From: Bacteroidota bacterium
GTDB taxonomy: Bacteria; Bacteroidota; Bacteroidia; Flavobacteriales; Flavobacteriaceae
NCBI GenBank assembly: GCA_021793375.1
Contig: JAJYSY010000003.1
Coordinates: 1 to 64,000 of the forward strand
Length of the DNA stretch: 64,000 bases
Direction: 5' to 3'
The position numbers and the translations under genes are program-made. Positions 51,059 to 61,198 of this stretch are shown piece by piece (within the stretch, counting starts at the first letter, position 1; each line of letters starts with the position of its first letter). The notes under the pieces are model-generated. The model did no database searches. It saw nothing but the letters and a program-made list of their open reading frames with translations, and had not been told where the DNA came from.

Positions 51059-52579
51059 TTACATCCAAGCTTTTGTAGAACTTTCAATTTTGTACAACAT
51101 ATAGTTGAGGTCTTTTAGAAAATCTGTTGACATTGCCCGCATTTTTAAACCTCCGCCGGCGGTATGAAAAGTTATATTATAAAGTCCTCTTCGCTTATAC
51201 CAAAAAGGTTGTTGAACACTGATGCCTTCCATTTTAAACAATTCTATGATTTCAGTTTTTTGCGTCCATAACCCTTGATTTATCACTAAAAAATCTTCTG
51301 AAATACTGAGCTTTATTGTTTTGTAAAGAAAATATTGATAAGGCAATAACACCAATAAAATTATTGCTGTAATAATAGATAGTCCTATTATGTTTTTTAA
51401 ATCATACATCAAGTAATTTAAAATCCAAACTGCTAAAATTCCCAATCCGATTAAAATATATCTTCTGTTAATCCACACTAAATGTGGTGTTATGTGTTTA
51501 GATTGAACAGATAAATTTTTGGTATATAAAAATGATTTCACTTTTTCTAAAATCTCAATTCCCAATCCCGGAGTAATGATTTTACTTTTTCCTAAATCAT
51601 TTTGACTGCTCGCCAAGAAAAACTGAGCTTCAAATAAATTTAATTTCTTTTGAATAGGGTTGGTTATTATTTTTAAAACCTGAAGTCGTTTAGCTTGAAA
51701 AGAAACTTTTGTGTTGGTTTTTAATCCCATTTCTATTTCCAAGTTTTTCGGATTTTGCTTGAGATTTAAATTAAAATGACGAATTACTACTTCTCCAATA
51801 GTGACTAAAATACTCAGCAGAAAAATAAAGGAAATAGAAAACAGTAAAATCAATAAATCTCCGGAAACATTTTCATAAAAATTATCAAATTCATTTTCTG
51901 TGGGCAGATAAGAACTAAAATAACTTTCCACTTGATTATAAATAGAAGAAGCAAACACAAAAATCAATAAAAATCCTCTGAGATAACTTCGGGTTAATCC
52001 GATTTTTATCAAGGTAAACAAACTGACTTGATATTTCCAAAATTCTTTGGATGTAGAGGAAGTTTTTTCTGCTGTATTTTCCGTGGAACTCTCCTCCTCT
52101 TCAAAGGATTCATTTTTAAGATGGGTTAATATTTCTGCTATTTTTTTAGCCTCTTTTTCTTGTAGAGCATGAATATGAATTTCATCTTTTTTACTTCCGG
52201 CAGTATCGATATTTAATCCGTAAACTTTTATTAAGCGTTGAAGAATAGAGCGTTTTAAATCTACTTGTTGAATTTTATCAAAAGGAATTCTAATCGATTC
52301 CGAAGAAAAAACTCCTTTTTCTAAAACAAACTTTTGGTCTTTATAATCTATATAAAAAGTAAAATTTCGATAATAAAAGAAGCTGTAAATCACTCCTAAA
52401 ACTCCCAAAACAGGTAAAGCTAAAAAGCTGTAAAATCGAACTTCTTCAGAACTGCTTACAAAAGCCAAAACCAAAAACGGCCAAAAAGCTCTTATAAATC
52501 TATAAGAAGATTTGAAAAATATCAATAAAACTCCTGAAACCTCTTGTTTTTTAGGCTGTTGAAATTCTTGTTCAAGCAT
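51059..52579 (-). CDS. PH-domain membrane protein, YdbT-like
   Basis: 506 residues. Several membrane helices (AFWPFLVLAFVSSSEEV, FLALPVLGVLGVIYSFFYY, LLILLFSISFIFLLSILVTIG, ILIGLGILAVWILNYLM, IIGLSIITAIILLVLLPYQYFLY) alternate with three bacterial PH (bPH2) modules marked by FDKIQQVDLKRSILQRL-type strands, SFQAKRLQVLKIITNPIQKKL and ISVQQPFWYKRRGLYNITFHTAGG. It resembles Bacillus YdbT, which pairs with YdbS. Its start overlaps the YdbS-like gene stop by 8 bases. The family is linked to resistance to certain bacteriocins in Bacillus; the role here is unknown. Confidence 0.85.
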   Translation of the reverse strand: MLEQEFQQPKKQEVSGVLLIFFKSSYRFIRAFWPFLVLAFVSSSEEVRFYSFLALPVLGVLGVIYSFFYYRNFTFYIDYKDQKFVLEKGVFSSESIRIPFDKIQQVDLKRSILQRLIKVYGLNIDTAGSKKDEIHIHALQEKEAKKIAEILTHLKNESFEEEESSTENTAEKTSSTSKEFWKYQVSLFTLIKIGLTRSYLRGFLLIFVFASSIYNQVESYFSSYLPTENEFDNFYENVSGDLLILLFSISFIFLLSILVTIGEVVIRHFNLNLKQNPKNLEIEMGLKTNTKVSFQAKRLQVLKIITNPIQKKLNLFEAQFFLASSQNDLGKSKIITPGLGIEILEKVKSFLYTKNLSVQSKHITPHLVWINRRYILIGLGILAVWILNYLMYDLKNIIGLSIITAIILLVLLPYQYFLYKTIKLSISEDFLVINQGLWTQKTEIIELFKMEGISVQQPFWYKRRGLYNITFHTAGGGLKMRAMSTDFLKDLNYMLYKIESSTKAWM

Positions 52580-53090
52580 TTTCAGAAACTTTTTGTGATA
52601 AAGTCTGATTTAATTGTACAGCAAGGTCAGGGAATAATCCCGGAATGTGCATATCGCTTCCGGTTCCTCCGGCGGTGTAAATTTTCAAAGAAGAAATTCC
52701 GAATATTTTATCTAAAAAAGAACGATTTATCGCTGAATGTTGAATTCTATTAAAAGGAATGATAGTTATTTTTGAAGAAATATATCCACTTCTAAACAAA
52801 ATATCTTTTTCGCGAATGGCAAATCCATAAAATTGCTGCTTCAATATAATATCTATCAAACGAATCAGCAGAAATAAAGCAATTACTCCTATTCCTATAA
52901 AAGTAAATGCGCTGAATTCTTCTTTCACAAAAAAGAAAGCTCCTATACCGGCAGAAAATAAAACGGTTAAGATAATCCATTGTAAAATGGATTTGGTTCT
53001 TAATTTTAAAGATACTTTTTGAAAATCAACTTTCTCAAACTGAGGTAAATCAGAAAACTTCAATTGTTGATTTGAAAAATCTTCCCGCAT
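52572..53090 (-). CDS. PH-domain membrane protein, YdbS-like
   Basis: 172 residues. Two membrane helices (ILQWIILTVLFSAGIGAFFFV, AFTFIGIGVIALFLLIRLID) followed by one bPH2 domain (IIPFNRIQHSAINRSFLDKIFGISSLKIYTAGG). Partner of the YdbT-like gene, with which it overlaps by 8 bases. The AGGTGSDMHIPGL loop is typical of this family. It faces the mevalonate kinase gene divergently. Confidence 0.85.
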   Translation of the reverse strand: MREDFSNQQLKFSDLPQFEKVDFQKVSLKLRTKSILQWIILTVLFSAGIGAFFFVKEEFSAFTFIGIGVIALFLLIRLIDIILKQQFYGFAIREKDILFRSGYISSKITIIPFNRIQHSAINRSFLDKIFGISSLKIYTAGGTGSDMHIPGLFPDLAVQLNQTLSQKVSENA

Positions 53091-55220: not shown

Positions 55221-56387
55221 TTAATGATCATGCCCGCCCAATCCTTTTTGTGCTTCTGCTAATAAATAATACGCATTATTATAAGCAAACAGAGTGTTTT
55301 TAGGAATTTCTCTTAAAAACTGAATTGAGACCCAATCTTCATCTGTTGGATTTATTTTCACTTCTTCAGCAGAAAACTCCCAATCTCCTTGTGGATTTTC
55401 CACTCCTATAAAAGCATAATTTTTATCTTCTACTTCTACTATAGCAGATTCCGGTAAAGCGATTACAGGTTTTTTCTCTTTTCTGATTTTGGCTTTTACA
55501 AAAGTTCCGGGAAAAAGATTAAAGTCCGTATTTTCTATTTTTGCTAACACTTGAATTGTTTTAGAAGTAGAATTGAAAGCTTTTCCTACAGCATACACTA
55601 CAGCTTCTACTTCTTGCTCAGCTGCAGAAAGAAGTTTTAAACTTACTTCTTGTCCTGCTGAAATCTGAGCAGCTTCTTTTTCATAAACTTTTAATTCAGC
55701 ATAAATATCTTTAGGGTTTATCAATTCAAACATCGCAGTTTGTGGTTCGATGAATTGTCCGGTTCTGATATTGATTTCTTGAATAAATCCATTTATAGGA
55801 CTAACCACCGGGATTTCTTCATGAATTTTTCCGTTTGCTATAGATTTAGGATTTAAATTTAATAATCGAAGTTTTGCTTCTAATCCTTTGGATTGTTCTT
55901 TTGCAGAAGTATATTTCTCTTTTGCTTGTTGAAAAATCATTCCGGCAGCTACACCTTCTTCATACAGTTTTTTTTGTCTGTTGAATTCTTTTTCTAAATA
56001 ATTGAGTTCATTTTTTACTTTGCTGTATTCCGTTTGTAAGCTGATTAAATCCGGATGAGAAAGATAAGCCAAGACTTGATTTTCTTTAACTTCTTCTCCT
56101 TCTCCAACAGTTATTTTACGGATGTTTGCTCCCAAAATACTGGTGATTATTGCTTGATTTTGAGGCGGAACTTTTAAAGTTCCGTTTACTTCTACGGCAG
56201 CTCCCAAATTTCGTTGTTTTAACGTATCTGTTTTAATGGCTAAAGCTGCTGCTTGAACAGCAGAAATATGAATATTCTCTAATACTTCTGTATGATTTTC
56301 TTCTTCATGATGCTCATTTTCTGCTTTGTTTTCTTGACAAGAAACTAAAAGAAAAAGAGGAATTATAATATAAATTAATGATTTCAT
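55221..56387 (-). CDS. RND efflux periplasmic adaptor (CzcB/CusB-like)
   Basis: 388 residues. Lipobox LLVSC (Cys17), then His/Glu-rich residues (EHHEEENH), a likely metal-binding segment. Membrane-fusion-protein layout: barrel-sandwich hybrid (AAVEVNGTLKVPPQNQAII), a long helical hairpin (about 125-180; EYSKVKNELNYLEKEFNRQKKLYEEG), the second lipoyl half (EIPVVSPINGFIQEINIRTGQFIEP), a beta-barrel and a membrane-proximal domain. The C-terminus ends GGHDH. It links the inner-membrane pump to the outer-membrane channel. 10 bases downstream of the pump gene. Confidence 0.92.
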   Translation of the reverse strand: MKSLIYIIIPLFLLVSCQENKAENEHHEEENHTEVLENIHISAVQAAALAIKTDTLKQRNLGAAVEVNGTLKVPPQNQAIITSILGANIRKITVGEGEEVKENQVLAYLSHPDLISLQTEYSKVKNELNYLEKEFNRQKKLYEEGVAAGMIFQQAKEKYTSAKEQSKGLEAKLRLLNLNPKSIANGKIHEEIPVVSPINGFIQEINIRTGQFIEPQTAMFELINPKDIYAELKVYEKEAAQISAGQEVSLKLLSAAEQEVEAVVYAVGKAFNSTSKTIQVLAKIENTDFNLFPGTFVKAKIRKEKKPVIALPESAIVEVEDKNYAFIGVENPQGDWEFSAEEVKINPTDEDWVSIQFLREIPKNTLFAYNNAYYLLAEAQKGLGGHDH

Positions 56388-56397
56388 GATTTTCTAA

Positions 56398-59300
56398 TTA
56401 ATTGTTTTCAAAATATTGTGTTGCTATAACTGCTAATAGGTAATTCTCTAAGCTTTCTAATGCTGCTAATCTGGTTTGAACAGCTTGAGAAAGAATTTGG
56501 CTGAAAGTTGTTTGCCCAATAGCTCCTTCTTGATAAGCCAATAAAGCACCTTCTTCTTGTTCTATTGCTAAAGGCAATGCTTCTTCTTTATAAAAAGAAT
56601 AAGCTTTTTTCCATTTTTCTAAATCTCGAATTGTTTTTTGATATTCTACTTCTAAGCTTTTTCTTTTAAAATTTTCTTCATTTTCAACTATTTCTTGAGC
56701 AATGAATTTTTTACGTTTTTCAGCTTTAGAATTCCCTGAAAATAAAGGAACAGAAACCCCGGCTTGGTAAGAGAAATATCCATTATCTCCTGCTAATCTT
56801 TGTATTCCGTATTCCACATTAAATTTGGGTAATCGCTCCGATCTGGATTGTTGATATTCTGCTTTTACTTGAGCAATTTTTGTTTCTATTTTTCTTAACT
56901 CAGGGTGATTTTCTATAGAAATATTTGGTGTTATTTCTTCTAAAAAATGTAATTCTGAAGAAACTTCATATCTCGAATCTGCAGAAAACCATAAATTGAG
57001 TTTATCTAATTCAAGCTGATATTCTTCAAAAGCTTGTTCTCTTTTTAAGTTTGCTTCTAAAGATTCTTTTTTGGCTTCATTATAAGCTAATCGAGAAATA
57101 AGTTCTACTTCATAATTCAAATGAGCAGCATTTTTATATTCTTTATAAATAGAATCCAATTTTTGGTAAAGCCGGTATTCTTGTCTTTTCACAAAAGCGT
57201 GCGTCCAAGCTTTTTTGACTTCCTGTTCTACTTCTAAAACAGTTAAGTCTTTTTGAGCAAGTGCTGCTTCTATCTTAGCTTGATGTGTTTTCTTTTTGGC
57301 AGAAATTCCTAATAAATCAATGTTTTGTTGACCTATTCCTACAAGTGTATAAATTCCTGTATTATTTTTTATTTCTTCTCCTCCGGTAAATATTTCTGTT
57401 TCTCCAAAATCCCAAATATTACTTTTTTGGACTTTTTCCTGTTCTATTTTTAATTCGCTATTTTTTAATAAATAATGGTTTTCTTTAGCGTATTTCACCG
57501 CTTCTTCCATATTTATTTCTTTCGGATTTTCTTGAGCAGAAGTTGAAAAACCTATAAATAATCCGATAAATAACAAAGCTAATTTTGGTTGAACATTAAG
57601 TTTAGGTTTACTTTTACTCTCCAACCATTTATATAAAACAGGCAATACAAACAGCGTTAACAGCGTAGCTGAAAAAAGACCTCCAATTACTACTGTTGCC
57701 AATGGACGCTGCACCTCTGCTCCTGCAGAAGTTGAAATTGCCATAGGCAAAAATCCAAAAATATCTACTAAAGCTGTCAGTAAAATTGGGCGAACTCTCC
57801 TAACGGATCCGGTGATAATTCTTTGATTTAAATCGGTTACTCCTTCTTCTTTAAGTTCGTTTAATCCGGTGAGTAAAACCAATCCGTTCATCACAGCAAC
57901 GCCAAAAAGAACAATAAATCCTACTCCTGCAGAAATGCTGAAATCCATTCCTCTTAACCAAAGGGCAAAAACCCCTCCGATTACAGACATTGGAATTGCC
58001 AGATAAATGATAGCTGTTTCTTTAAATGATTTTAATGCAAAATAAATCAACATAAAGATTAAAATTAAAGCTGCCGGAACAACTACTTTTAATTGATTTT
58101 TTGCGTTTTCATAATTCTCAAAAGTTCCACCATAATTGAGGTAATATCCCGGTGGAAGTTTGAGCTCTTTTAATTTATTCTGAATATCATCTACCACAGA
58201 TTTTACATCTCTATTTCTGATATTTATACCAACATAAGTTCTTCTGTTGGTGTTTTCTCTACTGATTTGCATTGGTGCAGATTGATATCCTACGCTTGCC
58301 AATTCTTTTAAAGGAATTGAATTTCCATCGGAAGTAGCTACATAAAGATTTTCTAAATCAGAGAGATCTTTTCTGTTTTCTTCTGATAACCTCACCATTA
58401 AATCAAAACGTTTTTCTCCTTCAAAAATAACTCCGGCTTGTCCTCCTGCAAAAGCAGTTTGAATCATTTTATTTACAGAAGCTATATCTACTCCATATTT
58501 TGCCAGTTTATTTCTGTCATATTCAATATTTATTTGTGGTAATCCGCTGGTGGCCTCAACACTCATGTCTCCAATTCCTTCTACATCAGCAATTAACTTT
58601 TCTATTTCCTGAGCTTTTTCAGCTAAAATATTGAGATCTTCTCCAAATATTTTGATAGCAACATCTTCTCTAACTCCGGTGAGTAATTCATTAAATCTCA
58701 TTTCTATAGGTTGAGTAAACTCATAAGAAACTCCGGGTAAAATACTGACAGCTTCTTTCATTTTCTCAATTAATTCTTCTTTACTTTTAGCAGAAACCCA
58801 CTCTTTTTCAGGTTTTAATCTTACAATAACATCTGCTAAATCCATTGGCATGGGGTCTGTAGGCACATCGGCAACACCAATACGACTGACAATTTCTTCT
58901 ACTTCAGGAAATTGTTCGATTACGATTTTTTCTATTTTTGTGGTGGTTTCCACAGCTTCTGTCAAAGAACTTCCAGGTTTTAATATGGCGTGAAAAGCAA
59001 TATCTCCTTCATCTAATTGCGGAATAAATTCTCCTCCTAAACGAGAAAAAACTGCTAAAGAAATTCCTAAAACAACTACTGCTCCAATAATTAATATTTT
59101 TCCTTTTTCTAAAGCTTTGATAAGTAGTTTTTTATAGAAATTTTCTACTTTATAAATAATCTTATCTCCAAAACTCTTTTTTGGGGTTTTTGGAATTCTG
59201 ATGAATAAAGCTGAAACAGCAGGAATATAAGTCAAACAAAGAATCATTGCTCCCAACATGGCAAATACAAAAGTTAATGCCATGGGTTTAAACATTTTAC

Positions 59301-60711
59301 CTTCAATTCCTTCTAACAGCAATATTGGAATGAACACAATAATAATGATGAGTTGCCCGAAAAAAGCCGGATTCATCATTTTTTTAGCTGAGTTTAAAGT
59401 AATTTTATCTCGTAATTTTTGGGTGTCTGTTGTTTTTTTCTTTTGATTTACAAAGAGTTTAAAAACAGTGGCTTCTACAATAATAACTGCTCCATCTACA
59501 ATTATTCCAAAATCTAAAGCTCCCAAACTCATCAGGTTTGCCCACACATCAAAGATATGCATCATTATAAATGCAAAAAGTAAAGAAAGTGGAATTGCCG
59601 AAGCAACTATCAAACCTCCTCTCCAGTTTCCTAAAAATAAAACAAGAATGAAAATAACTATCAGTCCTCCTTCTATTAAGTTTTTGGCTATGGTGTTTGT
59701 TGTTTTATCAATCAGCTCGCTTCTATCAATAAAGGGTTTAAGCTTAACGCCTTCAGGTAAAGAGTTTTCTATTTGAATCATTCTTTCTTTTACCAAATCT
59801 ATCACCTCATGAGAGTTTGCTCCTTTCAGCATTAAAATCATTCCGCCAACAGCTTCTCCTGTTCCATTTTTTGTCAACGCTCCATATCTGGTTGCTTTTC
59901 CTTCATCAACCTGAGCTACATCTTGAATGGTAATAGGATTTCCTCCTACATTTTTAATGACAATTTGCTTGAGGTCTTTGGTGTTTTTGGCCAATCCTTC
60001 TCCTCTTATAAAGTAAGCTTGATGATTTTTTTCTATATAAGCCCCTCCTGTATTTTGATTGTTTTTTTCTAAAGCTTCAAACACTTCTGAAAGCGTAATT
60101 CCTAAAGCATTGATTTGATCAGGATTTACAGCTACTTCATATTGTTTAATATTTCCTCCAAAAGAATTGACTTCTACTACTCCGGGAACCAATGCCATTT
60201 GACGACTAACAATCCAATTTTGGATTTCTCTTAGTTCTGTCAAAGAATATGTTTTATTTGAAGTTGAATCTACTTCAAGTGTAAATTGATAAATCTCTCC
60301 TAATCCTGTAGTAATTGGTCCCATTTCAGGTTTTCCAAATCCTTGAGGAATTTGATCTTCTATATCTGCTAATTTTTCTGATACCAATTGGCGTGGTAAA
60401 TATGTTCCTGCCTTATCTTTAAATACAACAGTTACAACAGATAATCCAAATCTGGATATAGATCTGATGTGTTCTACTTCCGGAAGATTGCTCATGGCTA
60501 ATTCTACCGGAAAAGTTACAAATTGCTCAATATCTTCTGTACTGAGATTTGGTGCTTGTGTGATTATTTGTACTTGGTTGTCCGTGATATCCGGCGTTGC
60601 ATCTATAGGTACTTTTTGCATACTCCAAATTCCTAAACCAATCCAAGCGATGATGAACAACCCGATAATAAATTTATTTCGGATTGAAAATTCGATGATT
60701 TTGTTTAACAT
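56398..60711 (-). CDS. CzcA/CusA-family RND pump fused to TolC-like channel
   Basis: 1437 residues. Residues 1 to about 1030 are a complete heavy-metal RND pump: 12 membrane helices, periplasmic porter loops, and the helix 4 motif DFGIIVDGAVIIVEA (Asp400, Asp406, Glu413), which fits the divalent-cation (Zn/Co/Cd) group more than the Cu/Ag CusA group. Residues about 1042-1059 (LALLFIGLFIGFSTSAQ) look like a signal peptide with an A-Q cleavage site. Residues about 1065-1437 are a TolC/CzcC outer-membrane factor (MEEAVKYAKENHYLL, KAWTHAFVKRQEYRLY, FSYQAGVSVPLFSG). No frameshift or stop separates the parts. RND-TolC fusions of this length recur in Bacteroidota. It may be processed into two proteins after export. 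Confidence 0.93.
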   Translation of the reverse strand: MLNKIIEFSIRNKFIIGLFIIAWIGLGIWSMQKVPIDATPDITDNQVQIITQAPNLSTEDIEQFVTFPVELAMSNLPEVEHIRSISRFGLSVVTVVFKDKAGTYLPRQLVSEKLADIEDQIPQGFGKPEMGPITTGLGEIYQFTLEVDSTSNKTYSLTELREIQNWIVSRQMALVPGVVEVNSFGGNIKQYEVAVNPDQINALGITLSEVFEALEKNNQNTGGAYIEKNHQAYFIRGEGLAKNTKDLKQIVIKNVGGNPITIQDVAQVDEGKATRYGALTKNGTGEAVGGMILMLKGANSHEVIDLVKERMIQIENSLPEGVKLKPFIDRSELIDKTTNTIAKNLIEGGLIVIFILVLFLGNWRGGLIVASAIPLSLLFAFIMMHIFDVWANLMSLGALDFGIIVDGAVIIVEATVFKLFVNQKKKTTDTQKLRDKITLNSAKKMMNPAFFGQLIIIIVFIPILLLEGIEGKMFKPMALTFVFAMLGAMILCLTYIPAVSALFIRIPKTPKKSFGDKIIYKVENFYKKLLIKALEKGKILIIGAVVVLGISLAVFSRLGGEFIPQLDEGDIAFHAILKPGSSLTEAVETTTKIEKIVIEQFPEVEEIVSRIGVADVPTDPMPMDLADVIVRLKPEKEWVSAKSKEELIEKMKEAVSILPGVSYEFTQPIEMRFNELLTGVREDVAIKIFGEDLNILAEKAQEIEKLIADVEGIGDMSVEATSGLPQINIEYDRNKLAKYGVDIASVNKMIQTAFAGGQAGVIFEGEKRFDLMVRLSEENRKDLSDLENLYVATSDGNSIPLKELASVGYQSAPMQISRENTNRRTYVGINIRNRDVKSVVDDIQNKLKELKLPPGYYLNYGGTFENYENAKNQLKVVVPAALILIFMLIYFALKSFKETAIIYLAIPMSVIGGVFALWLRGMDFSISAGVGFIVLFGVAVMNGLVLLTGLNELKEEGVTDLNQRIITGSVRRVRPILLTALVDIFGFLPMAISTSAGAEVQRPLATVVIGGLFSATLLTLFVLPVLYKWLESKSKPKLNVQPKLALLFIGLFIGFSTSAQENPKEINMEEAVKYAKENHYLLKNSELKIEQEKVQKSNIWDFGETEIFTGGEEIKNNTGIYTLVGIGQQNIDLLGISAKKKTHQAKIEAALAQKDLTVLEVEQEVKKAWTHAFVKRQEYRLYQKLDSIYKEYKNAAHLNYEVELISRLAYNEAKKESLEANLKREQAFEEYQLELDKLNLWFSADSRYEVSSELHFLEEITPNISIENHPELRKIETKIAQVKAEYQQSRSERLPKFNVEYGIQRLAGDNGYFSYQAGVSVPLFSGNSKAEKRKKFIAQEIVENEENFKRKSLEVEYQKTIRDLEKWKKAYSFYKEEALPLAIEQEEGALLAYQEGAIGQTTFSQILSQAVQTRLAALESLENYLLAVIATQYFENN

Positions 60712-60892: not shown

Positions 60893-61198
60893 TTAAACTC
60901 GTGGAGGTTTGAATAAGGATTGATAAATATCTTTCCCATCTTGATTATTATAGGAAAAATAAGCGGTAGAAATTTCTTTTTTAAGTGGTTTTTCTATTAC
61001 AACACTTTCAAATTCTGTCACTTGAACTTGACAACATTGGCAAGCACAAAAAGGAGAGCAATAATCTTGAGTAGAAGAGTGTGCCCTGTCAATTTTTGAA
61101 ATGGTTTCTGTTTTCGTTTTATCAATAAATATATCTGTACAAGGAATAGCAGCTAATCCTAAAACAAAAATAGAGATTATGAAAACAAATATTTTCAA
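60893..61198 (-). CDS. Cys-rich DUF6660-like exported protein
   Basis: 101 residues. N-terminal hydrophobic signal (VFIISIFVLGLAAIPC). A dense cysteine cluster, CSPFCACQCCQ, lies at about 47-57, then a short beta-rich tail. It matches small Bacteroidota proteins (DUF6660) usually found just upstream of CusA/CzcA-type pumps. The cluster could bind Cu or Zn in the periplasm, as a sensor or carrier, but this is not shown. It is first in the efflux operon, 181 bases before the pump gene. Confidence 0.78.
   Translation of the reverse strand: MKIFVFIISIFVLGLAAIPCTDIFIDKTKTETISKIDRAHSSTQDYCSPFCACQCCQVQVTEFESVVIEKPLKKEISTAYFSYNNQDGKDIYQSLFKPPRV

Follow-up and report, generated by a model that had tools for sequence, protein, structure and literature searches.

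A pump and an outer-membrane channel in one open reading frame

The window analysed here, a 64,000-nucleotide stretch of a Bacteroidota genome (assembly GCA_021793375.1, contig JAJYSY010000003.1, positions 1 to 64,000), carries on its reverse strand a single open reading frame (56398–60711) that runs from ATG to TAA and encodes 1437 amino acids without an internal stop. Pfam ACR_tran matches residues 5–1029 of the predicted chain (943 bits) and Pfam OEP matches two stretches of the same chain (90 bits, against a cut-off of 22), bearing out the proposal of a preliminary description, made from the sequence alone, that an RND pump is here fused in frame to a TolC channel. The gene for a periplasmic adaptor starts 10 bases after the fused gene, and coordinates of all features are given in Table 1. 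Judged from its sequence, the product is very probably a polyprotein that is cut by signal peptidase I, giving the pump and the channel of a tripartite exporter that probably handles a divalent metal.

The pump part belongs to the heavy metal efflux (HME) RND family: over residues 1–1036 the CusA/CzcA model TIGR00914 scores 1201.9 bits, against a curated cut-off of 701.45, and the closest solved structures are ZneA and CusA. Its motif DFGIIVDGA is one that we take to be of the divalent type. The positions equivalent to the Met triad with which CusA handles Cu(I)/Ag(I) (M573/M623/M672; PMC11213822) are occupied by H, L and E, by a hand count on the printed alignment that assumes a 7-residue PDB-chain offset, and the pump therefore lacks the signature of a CusA-type Cu(I)/Ag(I) exporter. 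A divalent metal is the probable substrate.

For the channel part, an AlphaFold2 model of residues 950–1437 was built from an alignment of the window sequence with 38 relatives (mean predicted local distance difference test score, pLDDT, 83.8; predicted template-modelling score, pTM, 0.69). In the model, four beta strands and a set of long helices are arranged as two repeats. This is the pattern of a channel protomer and, with the two OEP repeats, points to a complete TolC/OEP channel. Best fold matches include TOprJ1, OprM, CmeC, CusC and TolC (TolC 1ek9, TMt 0.70; CusC 3pik, TMt 0.69).

Table 1. Features of the fused gene and its neighbours, with positions in the window.
Feature	Coordinates	Strand	Evidence
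RND pump part, residues 1–1036 (CusA/CzcA heavy-metal family)	57604..60711	-	Pfam ACR_tran, TIGR00914, closest structures ZneA/CusA
Cytoplasmic loop / n-region of putative internal signal peptide, residues 1030–1043, LESKSKPKLNVQPK	57583..57624	-	sequence, loop charge
Hydrophobic core of putative internal signal peptide, residues 1044–1055, LALLFIGLFIGF	57547..57582	-	sequence, hydropathy
Predicted signal peptidase I site, S-T-S-A1059 / Q1060	57532..57546	-	alignment columns
Outer-membrane channel part, residues 1060–1437 (TolC/OEP family, complete two-repeat fold predicted)	56401..57534	-	Pfam OEP, model, fold matches
Periplasmic adaptor, CusB/HlyD type	55221..56387	-	HlyD_D23, RND_mfp matches
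Cys-rich small protein DUF6660, upstream of fused gene	60893..61198	-	PF20365

Fused frames across the Bacteroidota

Two sets of fused frames were assembled. The first comprised 130 frames from 140 loci (118 unique), with a median pairwise identity of 33% over the C-terminal 520 residues. The second, a combined set of 220 frames (195 unique) from Bacteroidota and near relatives, overlaps the first and also the 80 named loci described below; membership required a BLAST match to the window channel part, which left out three fused frames of 1450–1460 amino acids (L110, L130 and L131) that carry S-Q or A-Q at the predicted cut site.

When 392 genomes from the window's phylum were searched, at least about 150 matches were obtained, and most of those listed crossed the joint in open frames of approximately 1437–1537 residues. 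With TIGR00914, among 150 matches listed (148 genomes), 65 lay in frames of 1430–1530 residues, 83 in frames of 1025–1090 residues and two in others. Species genomes were scanned as well, with 590 loci confirmed; the best 80 of these, the named loci, were all fused, and by title these belonged to Bacteroidota, together with one Melioribacteraceae and one Chlorobiota. Among plasmids, 31/4353 matching records had a single stretch aligned to 80% or more of the query, and the best 33 rows (at least 73% covered, three in two pieces) bore Bacteroidota genus names, 27 of them with the annotation ‘CusA/CzcA family heavy metal efflux RND transporter’. The earlier statement that such fusions exist in Bacteroidota thus holds for genomes and plasmids alike. 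Gene order is nearly constant, an adaptor frame lying directly downstream in 192/195 fused frames; two loci were too short to tell, and at one (L125) an adaptor frame directly downstream was looked for and none was found.

The window belongs to a draft genome (101 contigs, 88.9% complete), in which a sequencing or assembly error might have joined two genes, as the preliminary description itself cautioned. The 195 unique fused frames, drawn from many separate assemblies and including a complete chromosome (L158), together with a checked plasmid copy from Pontibacter actiniarum DSM 19842 annotated as a single 4410-base gene, refute this, and the likelihood of an artefactual joint is practically nil.

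A putative internal signal peptide and its conserved predicted cut site

The order at the joint is the last pump helix, a positive loop (LESKSKPKLNVQPK), a hydrophobic core (LALLFIGLFIGF, residues 1044–1055) and S-T-S-A1059/Q1060. The loop has a median net charge of +4 (range −5 to +7 in 115 fused frames of the first set), and the best 12-residue hydropathy of the core is at least 1.95 in 118/118. Taken on these features as a signal peptide, the segment gives one frame the make-up of a signal peptidase-cut polyprotein, with a membrane protein in front of the internal signal peptide and an exported protein behind it. The preliminary description had placed a signal peptide-like core with an A-Q site at residues 1042–1059; the site, A1059/Q1060, proves to be conserved, whereas the start was off by up to two residues, the core beginning at 1044. 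In the AlphaFold2 model the core forms a short helix, and pLDDT falls below 50 in the loop at 1036–1041 and again at 1054–1060. Low values at the joint fit a flexible cut site, though poor modelling alone may explain them.

Signal peptidase I of Bacteroidetes favours glutamine (Gln, Q) as the first residue after the cut (+1), a preference known as the Q-rule, with a species mean of 71% and 332/334 species above 48% (PMC5837995), and the N-terminal Gln so released is converted to pyroglutamate by glutaminyl cyclase (PMC10653852). A1059/Q1060 has the properties of a predicted Q-rule site: it follows a hydrophobic h-region, its −1 residue is small, its +1 residue is Gln, and both residues are conserved in relatives. 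A Gln fixed inside a chain at precisely this position is sensible only if the chain is cut there.

Conservation of the site was pronounced. In the first set, [AGS]-Q was found 11–20 residues after the start of the core in 115/118 frames, compared with a mean of 47.5 (standard deviation 5.0, maximum 63) in 1000 shuffles, and the next commonest residue after [AGS] in that stretch, L, was found in 66/118. The motif was kept in 26/27 when one sequence was taken per 40%-identity cluster, and in 78/80 of the named fused loci (best 80 of 590). Because the count of 115/118 picks the site by its Gln, two further measures are given: choosing the site by −1 and −3 only, blind to +1, yielded Q at +1 in 158/193 frames, and the alignment column of Q1060 held Q in 190/195. 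In the column of A1059 the 195 frames had A (169), S (14), G (8), T (3) or E (1), hence A, S, G or T in 194. Entropy at −1 was 0.84 bits in the first set, against at least 2.17 bits at the other tabulated positions apart from Q, and in an alignment of 39 sequences (A2) Q1060 was the sole linker residue listed as nearly invariant. On the evidence of these alignments, the predicted cut site is maintained by selection while the linker around it drifts.

An uncut chain would have to span more than its linker allows

Helix H1 of the channel lies in the equatorial belt, half-way along the ~100 Å periplasmic domain (PMC8277102). From Q1060 to the start of this helix there are a median of 5 and a maximum of 21 residues (190 frames), and 21 residues, fully stretched, measure about 75 Å. 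The periplasmic height of an RND pump is about 70 Å, which, added to ~50 Å for half of the channel domain, puts H1 roughly 120 Å from the inner membrane, so that an uncut chain would hardly be able to occupy both places. It could nevertheless be argued that the chain stays whole, the thirteenth hydrophobic segment being a permanent membrane anchor and the fusion working uncut: the frame is open, the hydropathy of the core would suit a membrane-spanning helix, and cleavage is itself a deduction. A membrane anchor, however, has no need of A/Q, and it is precisely −1 and +1 that are conserved; with the linker also falling short of H1 we consider an uncut product very unlikely.

Split relatives and the origin of the joint

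Relatives in which pump and channel are separate genes show what the joint is made of. In L102, from the window's own family, the pump ends in a stop codon and 15 bases later a channel begins with MKTSISTIFLLLISSFSLA/Q; a similar peptide lies inside the chain of the fused L056 (MTKPIVTVLLLLVSSFSFA/Q). In L260, the pump and channel genes share an ATGA overlap, the channel starts with MRVFISVLLVLVSYTVWA/Q and the adaptor comes next. In both L102 and L260, therefore, the channel signal peptide stands at a true N-terminus, each time with A/Q. A neighbour search for pump followed by channel listed L102 and L236 only, L260 having been found separately. In a tree built with FastTree from 92 pumps plus four outgroup rows, in which 29/93 forks are open and L260 is represented by its twin locus L241, L102 and L260 nest inside the fused group, and four changes are needed for the fused label. 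One old fusion followed by at least two later splits is the simplest reading of this tree, which falls short of proof.

Of 22 unique tails of unfused pumps, 19 were under 12 residues or had a hydropathy of at most 1.1, well below the cores of fused frames, and the other three began upstream of the last helix, where the motif search had matched too early, and by eye end soon after it. Read by eye, none of the 22 tails contains a thirteenth hydrophobic segment, indicating that the segment belongs to the channel. Two unfused CusA-like pump genes, in L267 and L269, are broken into two frames (949+227 and 428+648 amino acids) and are perhaps decayed genes or assembly errors.

That the split channels begin just upstream of the core raises the question of whether the channel is also, or mainly, made from a separate internal start codon, with the fused chain as an extra. 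An in-frame ATG does occur after the last pump helix and ahead of the core in 90/195 fused frames, but around 80/195 would be expected to carry Met there from composition alone, 105/195 have no ATG, and 51/195 have none of ATG, GTG or TTG in that stretch; in the window, residues 1024–1059 hold only TTG, at 1030 and 1046. Separate initiation is consequently not a kept feature. It may occur in some species; as the explanation of the fused genes we find it very unlikely.

Proposed processing and subunit ratio

The window genome has a Peptidase_S26 gene (type I signal peptidase family). For glutaminyl cyclase it has a clear match to Glu_cyclase_2 (PF05096, E 2.6e-91), a family that we take to be the plant-type enzyme, besides six Peptidase_M28 matches. 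The preliminary description had the chain cut; the +1 Gln, the short linker, the split relatives and the S26 and cyclase-family genes all support this, the cut itself being something that we infer. Cleavage by some other periplasmic protease would be compatible with the sequence, but the position of the site, its −1 and −3 residues and the Gln at +1 agree with signal peptidase I and with the Q-rule, making another enzyme extremely unlikely.

Processing by signal peptidase I could proceed as follows. The 12-helix RND pump would insert with its C-terminus in the cytoplasm, whereupon the positive loop and the thirteenth hydrophobic segment would act as an internal signal peptide by which the channel part is exported to the periplasm. 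Cleavage by type I signal peptidase between A1059 and Q1060 would follow, and glutaminyl cyclase would convert the freed Gln1060 to pyroglutamate. The released channel would move to the outer membrane and trimerise, while the pump trimer would remain in the inner membrane, with the spent signal peptide either kept as a C-terminal helix or trimmed. The adaptor, at two copies per pump, would be made from the next gene.

Dominant models of tripartite pumps contain three pump, six adaptor and three channel subunits (PMC4446572). The fusion joins precisely the 1:1 partners, pump and channel, and leaves the adaptor as a separate gene. A 1:1 ratio, as put forward in the preliminary description, follows if one chain is cut in two; that this ratio is the benefit which selection keeps is a further step, plausible on these grounds. 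More speculatively, and in our view with the odds somewhat against it, the arrangement may represent a phylum-wide strategy, in which one ancient fusion of the two three-copy partners left the six-copy adaptor separate, the internal Q-rule signal peptide was kept and releases each channel chain beside its pump partner, and the spent peptide serves as a thirteenth pump helix, maybe with a job of its own.

Besides the in-frame ATG codons described above, several observations weigh against cleavage at a Q-rule site. The fused frames share ancestry, so that 195 frames are not independent trials, and the argument from conservation rests instead on neighbouring positions drifting while −1 and +1 stay. 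Five of the 195 frames are without [AGS]-Q: three have T-Q (L124, L215 and L182), and two have no Q at +1 under any reading (L119, A-E-A-C; L097, L-Y-G-K). An alignment of 15 sequences (A1) did not line up the Q, which it does not list as conserved. In the window the −3 residue is Thr, which is permitted, yet only the fifth commonest there. Two further pairs of pump–channel neighbours (L255 and L267) have the adaptor first and a channel start without A/Q; L226, the twin locus of L255, falls outside the fused group. Finally, according to the authors of the Q-rule, the occurrence of pyroglutamate on inner-membrane proteins is still to be tested (PMC5837995).

As a separate observation, L119 alone among the 195 frames has a Cys in, or adjacent to, the place expected for +1; its cut might lie elsewhere, or it might be a variant of the lipoprotein kind.

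Relation to known systems

The HME-RND systems CzcCBA, CusCBA and ZneCBA have the same three parts, the window pump lying near ZneA and CusA and its channel fold resembling CusC, OprM and TolC. They differ in that their channel is a separate gene, whereas here pump and channel form one chain, and in the Met triad of CusA, replaced here by H/L/E. A Pseudomonas putida plasmid, similarly, has TolC, adaptor and RND as three genes. In RefSeq, long entries named ‘CusA/CzcA family heavy metal efflux RND transporter’ correspond to the fused gene, to judge from the plasmid matches; the name covers the pump alone and leaves the channel unnamed. A precedent for the polyprotein is the cytochrome b-c1 precursor FbcH of Bradyrhizobium, in which an internal signal peptide links a polytopic inner-membrane protein to an exported one, the single chain being cut into two subunits of one complex. 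FbcH belongs to another complex, and its product stays at the inner membrane, whereas the window channel must reach the outer membrane.

Known Q-rule substrates share with the window protein the A/Q after a signal peptide, and both enzyme families are encoded in the window genome; the difference is that the signal peptide is here internal, behind a 12-helix membrane protein (PMC5837995, PMC10653852). The term ‘internal signal’ is absent from PMC5837995, and such an internal case is not treated in the available portions of either paper. Nor is a pump–channel fusion mentioned in the corresponding portions of PMC8277102, PMC4446572, PMC11213822 and PMC10434189. Searches aimed at the fusion or its cutting, in an open collection that lacks most subscription journals, found no description, in agreement with the earlier remark that the processing is little studied. 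Pump, channel, signal peptide and Q-rule are each already known.

Should the proposed cleavage be correct, a machine spanning two membranes is made in many Bacteroidota by cutting a single chain. Its subunit ratio would then be fixed by genetics alone, and nature would have supplied a test of how the two partners, pump and channel, come together. Database entries named only ‘RND transporter’ would then hide an outer-membrane channel, and a channel that seems to be missing from such an operon would not be missing. At the joint, moreover, the Q-rule could be tested cleanly at an internal position, one close to the inner-membrane proteins for which its authors left the question open.

Neighbouring genes and other observations

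The start of the adaptor encoded downstream of the fused gene looks lipoprotein-like by eye. Upstream, the DUF6660 protein carries YCSPFCACQCCQ. Its relatives lie upstream in 31/80 of the named fused loci, suggesting that its gene probably belongs to the metal operon; the protein perhaps has a metal-binding or sensing role.

Elsewhere in the window genome (L002, contig C69) there is a second CusA-like pump, 36% identical and unfused, with an adaptor frame just upstream and no channel match in the 6 kb examined. Among the loci examined, a 1777-amino-acid frame (G135:C78, L251) was considered as a triple fusion and rejected as spurious, its first ~690 residues being Arg/Pro/Ala-rich and without a Pfam match. 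Within the window, positions 51059–53090 of the reverse strand encode adjoining membrane proteins of 506 and 172 amino acids, which by eye resemble paired bacterial PH-domain membrane proteins.

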